From Halorussus sp. MSC15.2 (lineage in GTDB: Archaea; Halobacteriota; Halobacteria; Halobacteriales; Haladaptataceae), in NCBI RefSeq assembly GCF_010747475.1, contig NZ_VSLZ01000001.1, forward strand, positions 930,001 through 994,000: 64,000 bases of DNA. The letters are read 5' to 3'. The translations under genes and the position numbers were made by a program. Positions 2,781 through 53,267 of this stretch are shown here, piece after piece; position 1 is the first letter of the stretch; each line of letters opens with the position of its first letter. The notes beneath the pieces are model-generated. The model was not told the DNA's origin. It saw only the letters and a list, made by a program, of their open reading frames with translations, and searched no databases.

Positions 2781-3535
2781 AGCGGCGTCCACCCGACCGA
2801 GAGATTCCGATTCGGGACGTGCCACCGCTGCTCGCCGACCGGGCCGTCCTCGGCGGAATCGGCCAACCGAACTTCTACGACGGCGTCCGCGTCGTCAGCG
2901 AGCGTCTGCACGATATCGCTGTCGTACGGCTTCTGTAGCGTGTAGTGCGCCATGGCGTCGTGGTTCCGGACGTGCCCGCCGACGACTCGGAGACAGCGCC
3001 GAACCACGTCCTCGCCGTAGAAATCGACCAGCGGTTCCAGCGAATCGATACCCACCCTGAGGTCGGCCGGGCGGAGCGAGTCGGTCCGGGCCGCGAAGTC
3101 GTCGATGGCTTCGACCAGCGCGGCCTGAAGTCCGGCCAGTTCGGGGTCCGCGATGCGGGTCTCCTTGACGCCCGCCAAGTCCCGCGAAGGAGTTCCGTTC
3201 GTCGCAGCGACCGACCGAACTGCGCCGACGTGATTGAGGACGTGGGTCGTCTCACTGACCGGACGCGGCGACTCGCTCGGGTCGGGGAGTCGCTCGGCGA
3301 TACTCTCGGGCGTGGCGTCGGTGACCGCGAGGACGCGATAGCGGACTACGTCGTCGTCGCCCAGCATCCGCGAACTCGCGCGCGTGAGCAGTTCACGGGG
3401 TACGTCGCCCACGACCATGAGGTTACAGCCGGTGGACTTCAGTTCGTTCAGCAGGCCGAGGAAGTCCGCGAGGTCGTCGTCGGGCACCGACTCGTCCGAC
3501 CCGCGCGCAGGTTCGCTGGTATCTGGGGACGACAT
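2777..3535 (-). CDS. DUF7504-like (RecA/KaiC-type fold) haloarchaeal protein, 252 aa
   Basis: The region near residues 25-70 (LNELKSTGCNLMVVGD, then RYRVLAVTDAT) and the later IDSLEPLVDFYGEDVVRR resemble haloarchaeal DUF7504 proteins, which look like degenerate KaiC/RecA ATPases linked to signalling. No intact Walker A motif is visible. A TATA-like element (ttataaattt on the plus strand, 3569-3578) would place transcription start near 3550, so the ATG at 3535 is preferred over one at 3556 (259 aa). The gene faces gcvH and is transcribed away from the CHAT gene. Its role is unknown. Confidence 0.7.
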   Translation of the reverse strand: MSSPDTSEPARGSDESVPDDDLADFLGLLNELKSTGCNLMVVGDVPRELLTRASSRMLGDDDVVRYRVLAVTDATPESIAERLPDPSESPRPVSETTHVLNHVGAVRSVAATNGTPSRDLAGVKETRIADPELAGLQAALVEAIDDFAARTDSLRPADLRVGIDSLEPLVDFYGEDVVRRCLRVVGGHVRNHDAMAHYTLQKPYDSDIVQTLADDADAVVEVRLADSAEDGPVGEQRWHVPNRNLSVGWTPL

Positions 3536-3883
3536 TCGTTTTCGTGTGACTGTCATTTTCAGGGACAGGTTATAAATTTTCCTCCATAGGTATAGTGGAT
3601 ATATTATCTTATTCTCTGCAGAAAGGGACAGTCATCATACAAAACAGGAACTGCTGACGGAAACGGATACATTTCCGTAGGATGAAACCCCTAGTTGAGT
3701 ATAGAAAATTCTATATGATTTTGCCTCTAACTTATGATAGCATGAATTTGCCCAAATTTAGAGGTTGTTCCATCGAACCTATTAAAATATTGCAAGTTGT
3801 TTGGATTGGTATGCTGTTCCTGAATAATACTGGCATAAGAATTAATATATGTTGTGCGAAACCGGGGCCATAGTCTAACCCAA
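3536..3883. other. Strongly AT-rich intergenic segment
   Basis: This stretch is far lower in GC than the surrounding genes, and the low GC continues into the 3' end of the CHAT gene up to about 4240. A 63-codon rightward frame (3682-3873) exists, but its hydrophobic, lysine/isoleucine-rich product matches nothing I recognise. The segment holds the promoter of the DUF7504-like gene at its left end. No inverted or direct repeats large enough to mark an IS end are visible. The composition suggests acquired DNA. Confidence 0.6.
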
Positions 3884-18002: not shown

Positions 18003-18983
18003 TCAGGGACTCACCCGCGCCAACCAGCGTTGCGGGTCGTCCAGTTCCGCGTCGGTCGGGAGATTCTCCGGGCGGTCCCACACCACGCTCGCGCCTTCGA
18101 TACCGCGCGCGGCCGAGACTACGTCGAAGAAGGCCTTGCCGCGCTCGTACTGCCTCCGTTTCAGGCCGAGACCGAGTAGTCGGCGGACGAGTCGGGAGAC
18201 CGGGTCGCCGCCGCGCCTGCGTGCCTCCATCTTCTCGCGGAGGTCGGCGTACTCGTCGTCGAACGCGCCGTCCATCAGGAGTTCGGCGTACCCTTCGACC
18301 GCGGTCATCGCGGCGTCTAACTCGCGGAACGCCTCGCGGTCGAGGTGTCCCGTCGCCAGCGCGTCGATGCCCGACTCCATCCGGGATTCGAGGTGGTCCG
18401 AGAGCCACGGGGCCGCGCCGAACTCCGCGGCGTGGGTCACCTCGTGGAAGGCTATCCAGCGCCGGAACCGGTCGTAGTCTACGTCGAGTTCCCCGGCGAT
18501 GCGCTCGATGTTCGGCCGGACGAAGTAGAGGGCGTGTTCGTCGCCCTCGGCGAGGAGAAGGGGGTCGTACTGGCCGAGGACGTTCTTGGCCAGCACCGTG
18601 AGCATCACCGACATCGTACCGGTGTTAATCGTCCGGGCGACCCCCGGCATGACCGCGGGACCGTGTTCCTCGACGGGTCGCATCACCCGCCGGAAGGTGT
18701 CGATGTTGGCGTCAATCCAGTGGTGGCGATTCTGCACCTCGATGGTCTCGGGCACGTCGAACTCGGCCCCGGACACCTCGCGTACTCTGCTTCGGGCGTC
18801 GCGAACGTCCGCCGCGTACCCTTCCCGTTCGGTCTCCGAGAGGTCGAGCGAACCGGGAGGCGTCACCGCCTTCGCGGCCTCGGCGACGGCGGTCCAGTCG
18901 ATAGGTCCTTCGCCCGATGCGTCGGCAATCGCCCGGACGCTGCGATAGAGACTCACGGCTTCGAGTTGGGGACGGGCGGTCAA
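18003..18983 (-). CDS. Zinc-dependent metalloprotease, DUF2342 / zincin_2 family
   Basis: The 326-residue product contains a zincin motif FHEVTHAAEF (His180, Glu181, His184) and the family segment HHWIDANIDTFRRVM. This family (DUF2342) is labelled coenzyme-F420-biosynthesis associated because of its distribution; the real substrate is not known. A long helical region with a basic patch (EKMEARRRGGDPVSRLVRRLLG) follows the motif. Length and order match the family. It stands alone, between the small membrane gene and the gene-free stretch before orc1. Confidence 0.85.
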   Translation of the reverse strand: MTARPQLEAVSLYRSVRAIADASGEGPIDWTAVAEAAKAVTPPGSLDLSETEREGYAADVRDARSRVREVSGAEFDVPETIEVQNRHHWIDANIDTFRRVMRPVEEHGPAVMPGVARTINTGTMSVMLTVLAKNVLGQYDPLLLAEGDEHALYFVRPNIERIAGELDVDYDRFRRWIAFHEVTHAAEFGAAPWLSDHLESRMESGIDALATGHLDREAFRELDAAMTAVEGYAELLMDGAFDDEYADLREKMEARRRGGDPVSRLVRRLLGLGLKRRQYERGKAFFDVVSAARGIEGASVVWDRPENLPTDAELDDPQRWLARVSP

Positions 18984-19510
18984 AATCTTTCTGCTGGGTC
19001 TGGGCGGGTCTCACATCGATTCCGACGCAGTAGACCGATATCGTCACGCGTCGTGAGTCGGACTCCGGTCTCGTTCGACGGGGTGGGACACACCACCGTC
19101 GCGTTTGTAAGAGGGTCGAGAGGGGGTTCGGTGCGTCGGCGGTCTCGTCGGCCGCTGACACCACTACCGCGGATGTATTCGCAAGCAGTAGATATAGCAA
19201 CATTAGAACAGCTACAATCAGCTATCTCAGCCTGAGATGTTCGATTTTCGTGTATTTACATTCGAGACGGTGGTGTGTGTTTCACTAGTTACAGCGTGAG
19301 TCGTTACAGACGCGATGGAGGTGTGTGAGTCCCTCACTGACCGCATCACTGTCTAGTCTATTTTCCGTTTCGAGTTTACGGATTTATATTCGTATTTCGG
19401 TCTAATTTTCGTTCGTCTGCGCCTCGTACTTCTGTAGTCTTCGGTTATCGTCTCGCCATCTGGGATTCGTCGTACGGTTTCTTCGCAGCCTTATCCACGT
19501 CGTGTCAGTC

Positions 19511-19845
19511 GGATACCTCGCGGCCACCCCTCCTCCCCCTCCACTTACATCCGCGAGGTAGGTGTCTGTGGCAGTCGGCCACCCTACTCGAACCACTCGA
19601 CGGTCCCGTTCCGAAGAAGCGCGTCGAAGGAAGAGGTGTCCCAGAGAGGCGAAAAATCACGACGAGTAGAACGTCTACGGGAATCCCCGGTGCACCCGGT
19701 GAACCGCCAGAGCTTACGCGAGAGCATTCAGCGAGGTCACGGGACGAGAACATCCGCGAGGGTACTTCGAGCGGTCCTTCCCGGGAACTGGTTTCAAACC
19801 CTTGCTTTTCATCGTTCGACGGGGAGATACATCCGCGACGATACC
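19511..19845. repeat. Four dispersed copies of an origin-like motif, acatccgcgagg(g)ta
   Basis: Copies lie at 19511-19523 (inverted, ggatacctcgcgg), 19547-19560 (acatccgcgaggta), 19750-19764 (acatccgcgagggta) and 19829-19843 (acatccgcgacgata). The first two form a 10-bp perfect inverted pair with a 27-bp spacer. Their clustering upstream of orc1/cdc6 suggests recognition sites for the encoded initiator. Confidence 0.5.
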
Positions 19846-19852
19846 CCCTCCA

Positions 19853-19858
19853 TTTATA
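19853..19858 (+). promoter_or_regulatory. TATA-like box of orc1/cdc6
   Basis: The sequence tttata, centred about 31 bp before the ATG at 19887, would give a nearly leaderless transcript. This supports that ATG over an in-frame GTG at 19866. Confidence 0.6.
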
Positions 19859-19886
19859 TGCTGAAGTGCGAAGCAACTGCCATCAG

Positions 19887-21116
19887 ATGGCTACCGACGA
19901 CGACGTAGACCGCGACCCGCTCTTCCGGTACGACGAACCGATATTTGCCGATGAGGACCTCCTTCGAATCTCCCACCTCCCCGGGCCGAACCGAATCGTC
20001 GGCCGCGACGAACACATGCAGAAGGTCGCAGAGGCCCTCAACCCCGCCATCTTCGGTCAGGAACCCACCCACCTCTTCATCTTCGGAAAGACCGGGACCG
20101 GCAAGTCGCTCATCTCCCGCAGCGTCTCCAAGCGCGTCGAGAACGAGGCCCGCCACGAGGACGTGGACGTGGAGACGGCGTTCATCGACTGCGGCGAACA
20201 GACGACCGAAGCGTCGGTCATCAAGACGGTCGGCAGAGAACTCAACGACCGGAGCGAGACCGGCATCTCGGTTCCCCAGCGCGGACTCGGCACCGGCGAC
20301 TACTACGACCGCCTCTGGCAGATAATCGACGCGTGCAGCGACGTGGCGATAATAATCCTCGACGAAATCGACATGCTGGAGGACGACGAGGTACTCCGAA
20401 AGCTCTCGCGCGCCGGTGAGAACCGCCGCGTGACCGACTCGACCATCGGTATCATCGGTATCTCGAACAAGATAGATTTCCCCGACGAACTCAACGAGCG
20501 CGTCAAGTCGAGCTTCGCGCACGACGAACTCGTGTTCCCACCGTACGACGCTCACCAGCTCGTGGACATCCTCCAGAACCGTGCCGACGCGTTCCGGGAC
20601 GAGGTCCTCTCCGACGACGCCATCCCACTCACGGCTGCGTTGGCGGCGCAGGAACACGGCGACGCCCGAAAAGCGATAGACATCCTCCGGAACGCCGGGC
20701 GAATCGCAACCAAGGAGGAGGACGAGAAGGTGACCGAGCAACACGTCTACGCCGCGAAGGAGAAGACCGAGGCCGACCGGTTCGCCGAACTCATCGAGGG
20801 CGCGCCGACGCAGGCGAAGGCGATTCTGCTCGCGCTCACCGTACTGACCGAGAACAAGCCTCACGACCAGTTCCCGACCCAACAGATTTACCGGCAGTAC
20901 CAAACCATCGCGCGGAAACTCGACATGGACTCGCTGTCCGAGCGCCGCGTTCAGGAGATTCTACAGGAGCAGGACTTCCTCAACGTCATCAACTCCGAGA
21001 CCAAGGGCCGCGGCCGGGGCCGCGGAGTCCACACCAAGCACAGACTGCTCGAAGAACCCGAAATCGTGAAGAAGGTACTCAACCGGGATTCCCGAATCGC
21101 TGACCTCGGTATTTGA
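19887..21116 (+). CDS. orc1/cdc6: Orc1/Cdc6-type replication initiator
   Basis: Archaeal Orc1/Cdc6 proteins bind origin repeats, melt DNA and help load MCM. The 409-residue product has an AAA+ core with Walker A GKTGTGKS (67-74), Walker B IIILDEIDML (155-164), sensor 1 GISN (191-194) and sensor 2 GDARKAID (258-265), then a C-terminal winged helix including a Gly/Arg-rich GRGRGRGVHTKHR (375-386). Haloarchaea carry many paralogues, each tied to its own origin. The upstream non-coding region with repeats and the conserved small downstream gene fit an initiator beside its origin. Confidence 0.95.
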   Translation: MATDDDVDRDPLFRYDEPIFADEDLLRISHLPGPNRIVGRDEHMQKVAEALNPAIFGQEPTHLFIFGKTGTGKSLISRSVSKRVENEARHEDVDVETAFIDCGEQTTEASVIKTVGRELNDRSETGISVPQRGLGTGDYYDRLWQIIDACSDVAIIILDEIDMLEDDEVLRKLSRAGENRRVTDSTIGIIGISNKIDFPDELNERVKSSFAHDELVFPPYDAHQLVDILQNRADAFRDEVLSDDAIPLTAALAAQEHGDARKAIDILRNAGRIATKEEDEKVTEQHVYAAKEKTEADRFAELIEGAPTQAKAILLALTVLTENKPHDQFPTQQIYRQYQTIARKLDMDSLSERRVQEILQEQDFLNVINSETKGRGRGRGVHTKHRLLEEPEIVKKVLNRDSRIADLGI

Positions 21117-21185
21117 CCCCGGATTCGCTATCGTGGTTCCGCTCCATCGGCGTATCTCCCTTTTTCAGTTCTCCACTTCGACTTC

Positions 21186-21233
21186 TCTTCTCGGTACTCC
21201 GCCCCTTCCTCTTCTCGGTACTCCGCCCCTTCC
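21186..21233. repeat. Two perfect tandem 24-bp units after orc1
   Basis: The units at 21186-21209 and 21210-21233 both read tcttctcggtactccgcccc followed by ttcc. They are pyrimidine-rich and followed within 100 bp by an AT-rich stretch (about 21310-21370). They may be part of the origin or a recent local duplication. Confidence 0.85.
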
Positions 21234-21394
21234 CCAGACTCGTCTCGCTGCTAAACTGTCTCACTGCGTCGAACGGGTCGAACGACTCCTCCGAGTGGCT
21301 GCCCCGGAGATATATTAGGGCCATATTATGACAGTAAAGGTATTTTAAATATATCTGGACAGAATTTATACGGCAGGACGTCGCGGTAACGTCC

Positions 21395-21571
21395 ATGTCA
21401 ACGACAGCAACGTGGAGCGACCCGAACGACTGCCCGTTCTGCGGTAGCGAGCTTCGGAACCCCGGTGCAGGGTTCATCGACCACATCGACGAGAATCCGG
21501 ACTGCGAAGCGGGGTTCCAGACGTGGCGGAGTCAGATAGCCGACGATATCCGCGGCGGTTGGTCCGGATAA
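21395..21571 (+). CDS. Small CCHC-type zinc-finger protein (DUF7501-like), 58 aa
   Basis: The 58-residue product has CPFCG (13-17), a GAGFIDHIDENPDC stretch with His30 and Cys37, and a conserved-looking TWRSQIADDIRGG tail; C-C-H-C spacing suggests one zinc site. I recall the same small protein next to orc1/cdc6 genes in other haloarchaea (DUF7501), which suggests a link to replication or origin biology. A tttata box 27-30 bp upstream implies a leaderless transcript separate from orc1. Function is unproven. Confidence 0.82.
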   Translation: MSTTATWSDPNDCPFCGSELRNPGAGFIDHIDENPDCEAGFQTWRSQIADDIRGGWSG

Positions 21572-21818
21572 GCCGTCTACACCGTACCAGATTCATTTTC
21601 TCGGGTCGAACTATCGGGAGTTATACCTTCGAAATCCGGTACTGAGTTCCTCGTAAACTCATTTACTAGCCTCATTCGGCTGTCACTCGCAACTCGACAA
21701 TATTCCGAGTACGTAACCGGAGAGAAGTCTCCGAACCATCCCTGCCTTATACGATAATAGGATTTTAACCGATATCATAGGAAGGCTTAAGCTCTAGACT
21801 CGGCTACCGACTCCTACG

Positions 21819-21914
21819 ATGAGATGCCCACAATGCAGCGGTGAACTCGTGGCCGCCCACGGCTACGAGTCGTGTGCGGACTGCGGTCACGTACCGCCAC
21901 ACGGTGCCGACTGA
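21819..21914 (+). CDS. Zinc-finger micro-protein, 31 aa
   Basis: This very short frame encodes two zinc knuckles, CPQC at 3-6 and CADC at 19-22, arranged like the many haloarchaeal CPxCG micro-proteins. A cttaag promoter box about 31 bp upstream supports independent, leaderless expression. The TGA is at 21912-21914. Such proteins have been implicated in stress, biofilm or swarming phenotypes in Haloferax; the role of this one is unknown. Its position between orc1 and the Dna2-like gene is notable. Confidence 0.65.
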   Translation: MRCPQCSGELVAAHGYESCADCGHVPPHGAD

Positions 21915-21964
21915 CGACCCACGAGTAGACCGAGAGAGTACGGCCGGACCGTTCGTGGTCCAGT

Positions 21965-22015
21965 CCATTCGAGACGTGATTCCATTCGGGACGTAATTCC
22001 ACTCGAGACGTAATT
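21965..22015. repeat. Three tandem 17-bp iteron-like repeats
   Basis: The units at 21965-21981, 21982-21998 and 21999-22015 follow the pattern ccattcgagacgtaatt with 1-2 differences each, and a degenerate fourth (acccgagacgta) follows at 22023. They lie about 110 bp before the Dna2-like start and 850 bp after orc1. Phased direct repeats of this size resemble iterons or operators. Confidence 0.8.
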
Positions 22016-22122
22016 TCGGTCTACCCGAGACGTATCGCATCCGGAAACCATCCTCCGTTTTTCGACCCGAGTTCGACCGCGACCGAAGGGGTTTTTCTAC
22101 CGCCGGACGCTACGGTGTTCCC

Positions 22123-24855
22123 GTGAACGTCCGGGGAGAAGTCGTGGATGTCGGAGAAGTTCGTACCGTCAGTACGCAGTACGGCGAGCGCGAACTCGCC
22201 GAGGTCACGGTCCGCGAGGACACCGGTCCCAAGCGCGTCACGCTGTGGGGCAAGTGGACCGAGAGCGCCGACCTCCTCGAACCGGGTATGGAACTACTCG
22301 TGACCGACGTCGAGGAAGGCGAGTATCAGGGCGAGATGACCTACTCCACCGGCGAGGACTCGTACGTCGTCGTGGAACCGACCTTCCTCGTGGACGTGAC
22401 CGACATCCGGTCGTGGGTTCAGTGTCCGCGGATGTACTATCTCAACAAACTGTCCGGCATCCCGCTGGTCTATCCCGTGGTCAAAGGGACTATCGTCCAC
22501 GAGGTCTTCGGAGATTTGCTCCGGGGCCGCGACTTGGAGGAGTCCATCGACGAACGCGTCGCCGAGGCGGGACTCGAACTCGGTCTGCTCGGCCGGGAAC
22601 GCGAGGAGGTCGCGGAGGAGGTCCGTCAGAACGCGGCGGCCATCGAAGGCTGGCTCGCGCAGGGTGCCCTCACCGACGAGGACGACTGGCGGAGCGAGCA
22701 GACGCTCATCAGCGACCGATTCGGTATCAAGGGTCGGGCCGACGCGCTCCGACGCGGGATGCCCGTCGAACTCAAGACCGGCAAGAACCTCAAGCGCGAC
22801 CCGCGATTTCAGGACAAGATTCAGGCGGCGTGCTACGCCCTCATCCTCCGGGAGAAGGGCGTCCCCGCGGACACCGGCACCTTGCTCTACACGAAGAACT
22901 CCGCGCTCGACCGGACCGAAGAAGACGGCGACCTCTCGCCGGCCAAGGAGTTCACCATCGGCGACGGTCTCCTCGACTTCGTCGTGCGCACGCGTAACGA
23001 AATCACGGCGATGGAGTACGACGCGGTCGCCTCGGAGGCGGACGGTGCGGGCGTCCCCACCGGCTACGAGGCCGACGCCAAGTGCGAGTACTGCTTCGAA
23101 CAGGACACCTGTATGGTGGTCTCGGGCCGACTCGACCAAGAGTCCAAGGCCGGCCAAATCGGCAACGCGATTCCCGAAGAAGAGCGCGACTACTTCGACC
23201 GCGTCTACCGACTGATAGAGGAGGAGCGTCGAGCGACTCACGCCGAGTACGCTAAACTCTGGGAGCAAACCGCCGAAGAACGCGCGGACGACGACCGCGC
23301 ACTCATCGGTCTCGAACCCATCGACCACCGCCAACTCGACGGCGGTCGGTGGAAGATGCGGGCCAAACGCACGGGCGGTGCGGTCTCTAAAATCCGCGAA
23401 GGCGACGTGGTGCTCGCCAGCGATGGCGACCCGGTGGACGGCCACGCCGAACTGGCGCGCGTGGAGCGACTGGGCCGCGAGTCGCGCAGCGATTCGGACC
23501 TGTCGAGTGAGGAGCGAAGCGACCCGCGAGACGGGGAGGTCGTCGTCACCGCAGACGAACCGGTCGAACTCCGACGACTCGACGTCTACCCCTCGGAACT
23601 CTCGGCCGACCGGATGCTGACGGCGCTCCACGACTTCCTGTTGAAGGGCAACGAGCGCCGGAAGGACGTGCTGTTCGGCCGTGCGGAACCCGAGTTCGAG
23701 GACGGCCGCGAGACGTACATCGACAACAACGAGGCCCAGAACGACGCGGTCAACCTCGCGGTGAACGCCGAGGACTTCGCGCTGGTCCACGGGCCGCCGG
23801 GCACGGGCAAGACCTACACCATCGCGCGGACGATTCGAGCGATGGTCGAGCGAGGCGAGCGAGTTCTCCTCTCGGCGTTCACCAACCGCGCGGTGGACAA
23901 CGCGCTCGAAGCACTGCGCGACCAAGGGTTCGAAGACGTAGTCCGCGTCGGCACCGAGAGCGGCGTCCGCGAGGACATGCAGGACCTGCGACTGGAGCAG
24001 GAGGGCGACCCCGGCGAGCGCGTGGCGGAGTTGCGCGACGCCAGCGTCGTCGCCGCTACCACCGCGACCTGCGGGTCGCGCGTCATGCGCGAGCAGTCGT
24101 TCGACGCGGCGCTGGTGGACGAGGCGTCCCAGTTGACCGAACCAAACACGCTCGCGGCGGTCAACCTCGCCGAGCGGTTCGTCCTCGTCGGCGACCACCA
24201 GCAGCTACCGCCGGTCGTGCGGACCGAAAACGAGCTATCGACTTCGCTGTTCGAGCGTCTCATCGAGGACCACCCGGACGCGGGCGTGATGCTCGACCGC
24301 CAGTACCGGATGAGCCAGCGGATTCAGGCGTTCGCCTCCCGCGAGTTCTACGACGGTGAGTTGCGCCCCGCGTCGGGCGAAGTTGCCGCCCAGCGACTCG
24401 CGGACCTCCCCGAGGTCGCTCACACCGACCTGCCCGAGGACCTGCGAGGCGGAGGCGGCGTCTCCTTCGTGGACCCCGACGGATACACCGACGGCAACAC
24501 CAACCCGGTGGAGGCCGAACGCGTGGCCGAAGTCGTCGGCGAGTTCCTCGCGGCGGGCGTCGACCCCGAGGAAATCGGAGTTATCGCTCCGTTCCGCGCG
24601 CAGGTCGCCGAAATCGGTCGCCGAGTCCCCGACCCGGTGACCGTGGACACGGTGGACCGATTTCAGGGGTCGAGCAAGGAGGTCATCGTGGTCTCGTTCG
24701 TCGCCACCGAGAATCTGGAGAGTCCCATCTTCGAGGACCCCCGCCGGGTGAACGTGGCGCTCACGCGCGCGAAGAAGGCGCTGGTGCTGGTCGGCGACGC
24801 GGACGCCCTCCGGAGCGAGGGTCTCTACTCGCGCATGGTCGATTGGGCGGAATGA
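22123..24855 (+). CDS. Dna2-like protein: OB fold, Cas4/RecB-type Fe-S nuclease and SF1B helicase, 910 aa
   Basis: Residues 1-85 form an OB-like domain. Residues 95-335 are a Cas4/RecB-family nuclease with GRAD (204-207) and VELKTG (215-220) catalytic motifs and a four-cysteine Fe-S set (Cys101, 321, 324, 330). Residues 535-910 are an Upf1-like SF1B helicase with GPPGTGKT (557-564), VDEASQ (665-670), GDHQQLPPV and a C-terminal NVALTRAKKALVLVGD. This order is that of Dna2, which processes flaps and DNA ends. The start is GTG, 29 bp after a tttttcta box. An acidic/serine linker at about 450-480 is degenerate. Confidence 0.9.
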   Translation: MNVRGEVVDVGEVRTVSTQYGERELAEVTVREDTGPKRVTLWGKWTESADLLEPGMELLVTDVEEGEYQGEMTYSTGEDSYVVVEPTFLVDVTDIRSWVQCPRMYYLNKLSGIPLVYPVVKGTIVHEVFGDLLRGRDLEESIDERVAEAGLELGLLGREREEVAEEVRQNAAAIEGWLAQGALTDEDDWRSEQTLISDRFGIKGRADALRRGMPVELKTGKNLKRDPRFQDKIQAACYALILREKGVPADTGTLLYTKNSALDRTEEDGDLSPAKEFTIGDGLLDFVVRTRNEITAMEYDAVASEADGAGVPTGYEADAKCEYCFEQDTCMVVSGRLDQESKAGQIGNAIPEEERDYFDRVYRLIEEERRATHAEYAKLWEQTAEERADDDRALIGLEPIDHRQLDGGRWKMRAKRTGGAVSKIREGDVVLASDGDPVDGHAELARVERLGRESRSDSDLSSEERSDPRDGEVVVTADEPVELRRLDVYPSELSADRMLTALHDFLLKGNERRKDVLFGRAEPEFEDGRETYIDNNEAQNDAVNLAVNAEDFALVHGPPGTGKTYTIARTIRAMVERGERVLLSAFTNRAVDNALEALRDQGFEDVVRVGTESGVREDMQDLRLEQEGDPGERVAELRDASVVAATTATCGSRVMREQSFDAALVDEASQLTEPNTLAAVNLAERFVLVGDHQQLPPVVRTENELSTSLFERLIEDHPDAGVMLDRQYRMSQRIQAFASREFYDGELRPASGEVAAQRLADLPEVAHTDLPEDLRGGGGVSFVDPDGYTDGNTNPVEAERVAEVVGEFLAAGVDPEEIGVIAPFRAQVAEIGRRVPDPVTVDTVDRFQGSSKEVIVVSFVATENLESPIFEDPRRVNVALTRAKKALVLVGDADALRSEGLYSRMVDWAE

Positions 24856-52681: not shown

Positions 52682-53267
52682 ATGTCGAGCCACGGCCTCA
52701 CGACCGAGGCGTCCGAGGATAGAGTAAGTCGCCAGTCGGCGGCTGGTCGAGAAATTCTCCGCGGAGTGTAACTCTCGTTCCGACTCGGCCCGTCCCGACC
52801 CGGACGACGGGGACCGTGACGGTTCTGCCGACGCACGCGAGACGGTCGCAGTCACAGTTGCTGGAGACACTCACGAACTCACTAGAGCCGAGGCCGACCG
52901 ACTACGCGCGGCGCTCGGCGAGGCGCTGACCGAGCGCCGCGAGTTCGTCCGCACGGTCGGGACCCATCGCGAAGACGGAAGTTACGTCGTCGCCCGGCGG
53001 TGTGCGGACTCGTCGGGTCACCGCAAGGTGTTCGAGAGCTTCGCGGCCCTACAGCGACGCTACGACCGACTGCCCGACGAGTTCACCGCCGAGGACGTCG
53101 GCGAATCCGGACTGACCGGCGGGCGTCGTCACATGCTCGTGCATCACTTCGCCGAGCATCCCAGCTTCGACTGCGAACTGGAGAAGCGTCAACCGCTCAC
53201 CGCCCGAAAGCGAGCTGGCGACGGGCCAGACCCCCGAGGCGACGCCGGGGGTGAAACCGGATACTGA
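52682..53267 (+). pseudogene. DUF7528-like haloarchaeal gene without an intact start
   Basis: Codons from 52728 to the TGA at 53265 encode a coherent protein (ETVAVTVAGDTHELTRAEA, REFVRTVGTHREDGSYVVARR, SGLTGGRRHMLVHHFAEH) like haloarchaeal DUF7528. No ATG, GTG or TTG precedes it in frame before a TAA at 52725. An ATG at 52682, about 30 bp after a tttatta box, begins MSSHGLTTEASEDRVSRQ in another frame and stops at 52771. The simplest reading is an indel between about 52728 and 52768 that separates the start from the body. A shorter product from GTG 53028 is possible. Confidence 0.68.

Follow-up and report, generated by a model that had tools for sequence, protein, structure and literature searches.

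The stretch of DNA analysed here, the 64-kb window, is positions 930001 to 994000 of contig C1 in a 4.4-Mb Halorussus genome that is very close to H. aquaticus. It contains an orc1/cdc6 gene directly adjoined by a non-coding gap upstream; two zinc-finger micro-genes, two sets of tandem repeats and a Dna2-like gene lie downstream (Table 1). The 409-aa Orc frame is intact and its product is identical to the Orc of H. aquaticus. The protein has a Cdc6 lid and a Cdc6_C winged helix, a Walker A motif (GKTGTGKS) and a Walker B motif (DEID) were read in its sequence, and its closest solved structures are the archaeal Orc1/Cdc6 chains 2v1u and 2qby. A leuA-Halobacteria cis-regulatory RNA (RF03001, 63.9 bits) was also found in the window, at 52708 to 52760.

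The preliminary description had reported a 903-bp gap (18984 to 19886) with an AT-richer core and four copies of the motif ACATCCGCG, as well as the downstream genes and repeats named above; each of these observations was confirmed. GC content reached its minimum, 0.44, at 19200 to 19399, compared with 0.62 to 0.70 in the neighbouring genes. Exact copies of the 9-mer were located at 19168 (−), 19547 (+), 19750 (+) and 19829 (+); the whole 64 kb held five, against 1.1 expected, and no shuffle reached five. That description had seen the 9-mers alone and had overlooked a longer element, TTACANNCGCGANNNNGGTGT, for which a search allowing up to two mismatches returned five matches in 64 kb against 0.08 expected, each inside the gap. 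The highest A+T of the window was recorded at 3500 to 3860 (80-mers of up to 71% A+T), above that of the spacer described below.

Table 1. Positions in the window of the orc1/cdc6 gene, its upstream elements and its downstream neighbours.
Feature	Position	Strand	Sequence and basis
ORB 1	19087..19110	-	TTACAAACGCGACGGTGGTGTGTC, 23.7 bits; PWM from other genera; conserved in 5/6 Halorussus
ORB 2	19155..19178	-	ATACATCCGCGGTAGTGGTGTCAG, 21.1 bits; PWM from other genera and Halorussus conservation
Spacer between inverted ORB pairs, candidate unwinding element	19179..19255	.	77 bp, 60% A+T
ORB 3	19256..19279	+	TTACATTCGAGACGGTGGTGTGTG, 27.3 bits; PWM from other genera and Halorussus conservation
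ORB 4	19304..19327	+	TTACAGACGCGATGGAGGTGTGTG, 25.7 bits; PWM from other genera and Halorussus conservation
Second AT-rich stretch, right of ORB 4	19334..19413	.	62% A+T
ORB 5	19545..19568	+	TTACATCCGCGAGGTAGGTGTCTG, 31.8 bits; PWM from other genera and Halorussus conservation
Half-site without G-string, about -138	19748..19764	+	GAACATCCGCGAGGGTA; 16/17 columns invariant in six Halorussus, one excepted
Half-site without G-string, -60 from orc start codon	19827..19838	+	ATACATCCGCGA; candidate autoregulatory operator
TATA box of orc promoter, ATTTATA	19852..19858	+	Sequence; TTTAT conserved in relatives
orc1/cdc6 initiator gene	19887..21116	+	409 aa; TIGR02928 418.7 bits, cut-off 181.3
24-bp tandem repeat, two copies	21185-21232
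DUF7501 microgene	21395-21571
Zinc-ribbon ORF	21819-21914		MRCPQCSGELVAAHGYESCADCGHVPPHGAD; 31 aa, CxxC/CxxC
17-bp tandem repeat	21964-22034
Dna2-like gene	22123-24855

Alignment of the orthologous gaps resolved the element into an origin recognition box (ORB) composed of TTACAtcCGCGA followed by a tail. Many Natrialbaceae have the tail CGGGGGTGTGTG, and Halorussus has CGGTGGTGTGTG; for the G-string at the end of the box, many Natrialbaceae have GGGGGTGT, whereas in Halorussus it is GGTGGTGT at the longest. Five full ORBs with the family consensus TTACAtcCGCGAcgGgGGTGTgtG are present in the gap, 320 to 800 bp upstream of orc. A weight matrix (PWM) trained on 77 sites, all of them outside Halorussus, recovered exactly five sites in the 64 kb, every one in the gap and arranged <<>>>, with two leftward and three rightward boxes around the spacer, whose A+T content was 60% compared with 38% in orc. 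Downstream of orc within the window the matrix gave no site, and 13 further Orc hits in the same genome likewise had none; in 1.2 Mb sampled from H. aquaticus it gave one match of at least 14 bits. A text search of the published literature with ACATCCGCGA returned no match concerning haloarchaeal origins.

The same arrangement recurred widely. Either <<>> or <<>>> was found in 54 of 67 other loci (51 and 3, respectively), a set that includes four distant homologs or truncated loci without any site. The spacer was near-constant, with a median of 71 bp and 61 to 78 bp in most relatives, and its A+T content across loci was 0.46 versus 0.39 in genes. When the gaps of six Halorussus species were aligned, 67% of the columns were invariant in the sites and 7% outside them. 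In 195 sampled genomes of the order, orthologs with at least 65% identity were present in Halorussus and in many others, and 15 of the 18 Halorussus genomes searched had one with at least 89% identity. Named loci belong to Haladaptataceae, Natrialbaceae, Haloferacaceae and Natronomonadaceae. Most orthologs are chromosomal and some are plasmid-borne; no viral copy of an orc from this family was confirmed. The ORB drifts with the Orc protein, to TTACATTCGCGA in Halogranum and TTACAGCGGCGA in Halomarina. This drift and the lack of sites at the 13 other Orc hits support a recognition sequence peculiar to this Orc family; the sequence is kept in four families of haloarchaea. The Orc protein tree was used loosely, because several paralog rows contained indel stop codons and the family label required two changes on the tree. 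In several complete genomes (locus L029 and genomes G113, G129 and G072), contig numbering begins a few hundred to 2,300 bp before the orc ortholog, as if submitters had taken this place as the main origin.

Wu et al. (2012; PMC3528665) describe haloarchaeal orc/cdc6-adjacent origins with family-specific ORBs. In the standard plan (PMC3528665, PMC3936714), an AT-rich spacer is enclosed by inverted full ORBs, with the initiator gene next to them. The Halorussus locus resembles the origins of Wu et al. in that the initiator gene adjoins inverted ORBs and an AT-rich region and the ORB is tied to the Orc family; it differs in its short or broken G-string. Natrialbaceae were covered in PMC3528665, so the Natrialbaceae members of the present family were probably among the origins predicted there in 2012. 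We read 18984 to 19886, with high confidence, as a predicted origin of this kind, with the adjoining Orc1/Cdc6 as its own initiator. An origin with its own recognition sequence had been proposed earlier; the sequence does appear to belong to this Orc family and is a variant of the known ORB type, not an unrelated element.

The earlier proposal also let the origin span orc1/cdc6 and extend into the downstream flank. All the anatomical parts of a haloarchaeal origin are present upstream of orc; an extension across the gene and its downstream flank was not supported. Both downstream tandem repeats were absent in the five relatives compared (H. aquaticus, H. salinisoli, H. ruber, H. marinus and H. 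amylolyticus) and are private to the window genome among them; H. aquaticus lacks both despite its identical Orc and a Dna2 that is 97% identical. The zinc-ribbon genes and Dna2 form this neighbourhood only in some Halorussus, and DUF7501 and Dna2 were not found beside orc outside Halorussus. The zinc-ribbon ORF at 21819 to 21914 is visible also in H. aquaticus, H. salinisoli and H. ruber, where the region upstream of it is conserved. The core of the 17-bp repeat, TTCCATTCGAGACG, resembles ORB 3 (TTACATTCGAGACG) as well as the canonical ORB core, and in H. hispanica oriC2 there are ORB clusters on the downstream side that apparently titrate the initiator, so that one could imagine such a cluster as part of the origin here. 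Given the absence of the repeats in all five relatives, the lack of PWM sites downstream of orc and the restricted gene neighbourhood, we regard this as very improbable. The repeats were thus ruled out as part of the origin, and a conserved orc-Dna2 coupling was ruled out because the pairing is limited to some Halorussus.

The usual ORB core had been described as absent. This holds for the oriC1-type core TTCCANTNGAAAC, which had no exact match in 18501 to 22500, and does not hold in general, since ORBs of the family type are present. Near matches to TTCCANTNGAAAC (one or two mismatches) in the same interval comprised one within a new-type ORB and three in the downstream 17-mers. Exact and near matches were found at another orc of the same genome, on contig C9, which was equated with an orc of H. 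aquaticus at 3,035,909 by similar match to the query. The latter orc adjoins DP1, the small subunit gene of PolD, at 3,033,417, and the H. aquaticus ortholog of the present locus, at 523,453, is about 1.07 Mb from DP1 around the circle. The gap was rejected as oriC1 because the canonical core is missing here and DP1 does not neighbour the H. aquaticus ortholog, while oriC1-type ORBs occur at the C9 orc, whose H. aquaticus counterpart lies beside DP1. By sequence, the gap is predicted to be an origin of the second type, distinct from the ancestral oriC1, and the oriC1 role falls to the contig C9 locus. Like the oriC1 of haloarchaea, as exemplified by H. hispanica oriC1-cdc6A, it has an AT-rich region between inverted ORBs with the initiator gene alongside; unlike it, it lacks the TTCCA..GAAAC core and a position among replication genes. 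A long G-run is essential in H. hispanica oriC1, whereas the Halorussus tail is GGTGGTGT; this difference, like the very low yield of plasmid pFJ5 described below, counts against the origin reading.

Genome-scale signals were examined in H. aquaticus. In a sample of one third of the chromosome, GC skew was too weak to be informative and had no significant feature at the locus (permutation p = 0.17 for the cumulative range; rank 16 of 60 for the 523-kb step). The nearest rRNA operon is about 425 kb away, which ruled out a nearby operon of the kind seen at other haloarchaeal origins.

Evidence from related replicons bears on activity. ARS-5, the predicted chromosomal origin oriC9 of Natrinema sp. 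J7, was cloned as plasmid pFJ5, which replicates very poorly (few transformants, <10 cfu/µg; PMC5350488). The ARS-5 primers matched locus L049 of Natrinema gari JCM 14663 at both ends without mismatch, the match being to N. gari and not to J7 itself. The N. gari orc is 74% identical to that of Halorussus and has the same ORBs, although genus and gene neighbourhood differ; Ori-Finder 2 had assigned one ORB to ARS-5 (PMC5350488), whereas the family motif gives four or five full ORBs. On two Haloprofundus plasmids of 48 and 49 kb (L164 and L165), an orc of this family is the sole Orc hit, accompanied by its ORBs and by ParA; no other initiator is annotated, in a gene table that is incomplete, so these plasmids may carry a second one. 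The orc/ORB pair is their only recognisable replication system and seems to drive them. Both plasmids also encode RdfA and many surface-polysaccharide genes. The Orc4 locus on pNRC200 of Halobacterium salinarum NRC-1 is similarly built, with an Orc that is 54% identical and repeats of the form TTACGACGGAAACGTGGGGTG upstream, but its core is GACGGAAACG compared with ATCCGCGA in the Halorussus family, and the PWM found no site there.

The very weak activity of the Natrinema ortholog and the degenerate G-string of Halorussus are also what would be expected of an origin that is conserved yet dormant or very weak, in which anatomy and Orc binding are real and normal chromosomal firing does not occur, the element being a backup or left over from a captured plasmid. 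Dormant origins have been described in haloarchaea, as in Haloferax mediterranei (PMC4595724). In a disused element one would not expect sites and spacer to be so strongly conserved across four families, or the ortholog itself to be so within Halorussus, and the same pair appears to drive plasmids. We consider dormancy a serious possibility, though somewhat below an even chance. Firing in the Halorussus chromosome may thus be weak or dormant, and we give regular firing about one chance in two.

Two further sites in the gap lack the G-string. The one at -60 is immediately upstream of the orc TATA box, and a site at -58 to -71, mostly directly upstream of a TATA box, was found in 59 of 65 loci, in none of them with the GGTG tail. 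This fixed position of a tail-less site suggests that Orc regulates its own promoter. It could also mean that the whole array is an operator for control of the orc promoter by Orc or another regulator, with no replication starting there. Such an operator would make five full ORBs in inverted pairs far upstream, with an AT-rich spacer, superfluous, and would leave unexplained the weak ARS activity in Natrinema and the small plasmids with no other recognisable initiator system; we consider it improbable. The standard ORB plan, the Haloprofundus plasmids and the replication of pFJ5 argue for a replicator and not an operator alone.

For the predicted origin, we infer that Orc would bind the two leftward and three rightward ORBs, with their TTACAtcCGCGA core and G/T tail ending in GGTGT, help to melt the AT-rich spacer that separates the inverted pairs, and load MCM. 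Surplus Orc would fill the two half-sites without a G-string (about -138 and -60), and their occupancy would turn down the orc promoter, whose TATA box is just downstream of the -60 site. This Orc family would thereby use two grades of site in one gap, G/T-tailed ORBs to fire and tail-less half-sites about 60 bp before the start codon to shut off orc when Orc is plentiful, a scheme to which we assign only slightly less than an even chance.

Second-type origins of this sort are widespread but have been little described, and these results provide an ORB consensus for them that is precise and open to testing. They link this ORB family to an existing weak vector, pFJ5, and point out small plasmids whose replication seems to depend on it. 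With the tail-less promoter half-sites, changing a few bases would put initiator autoregulation in archaea to a direct test. If true, the two-grade scheme would give archaea an inbuilt equivalent of DnaA autoregulation that several families of haloarchaea have conserved.
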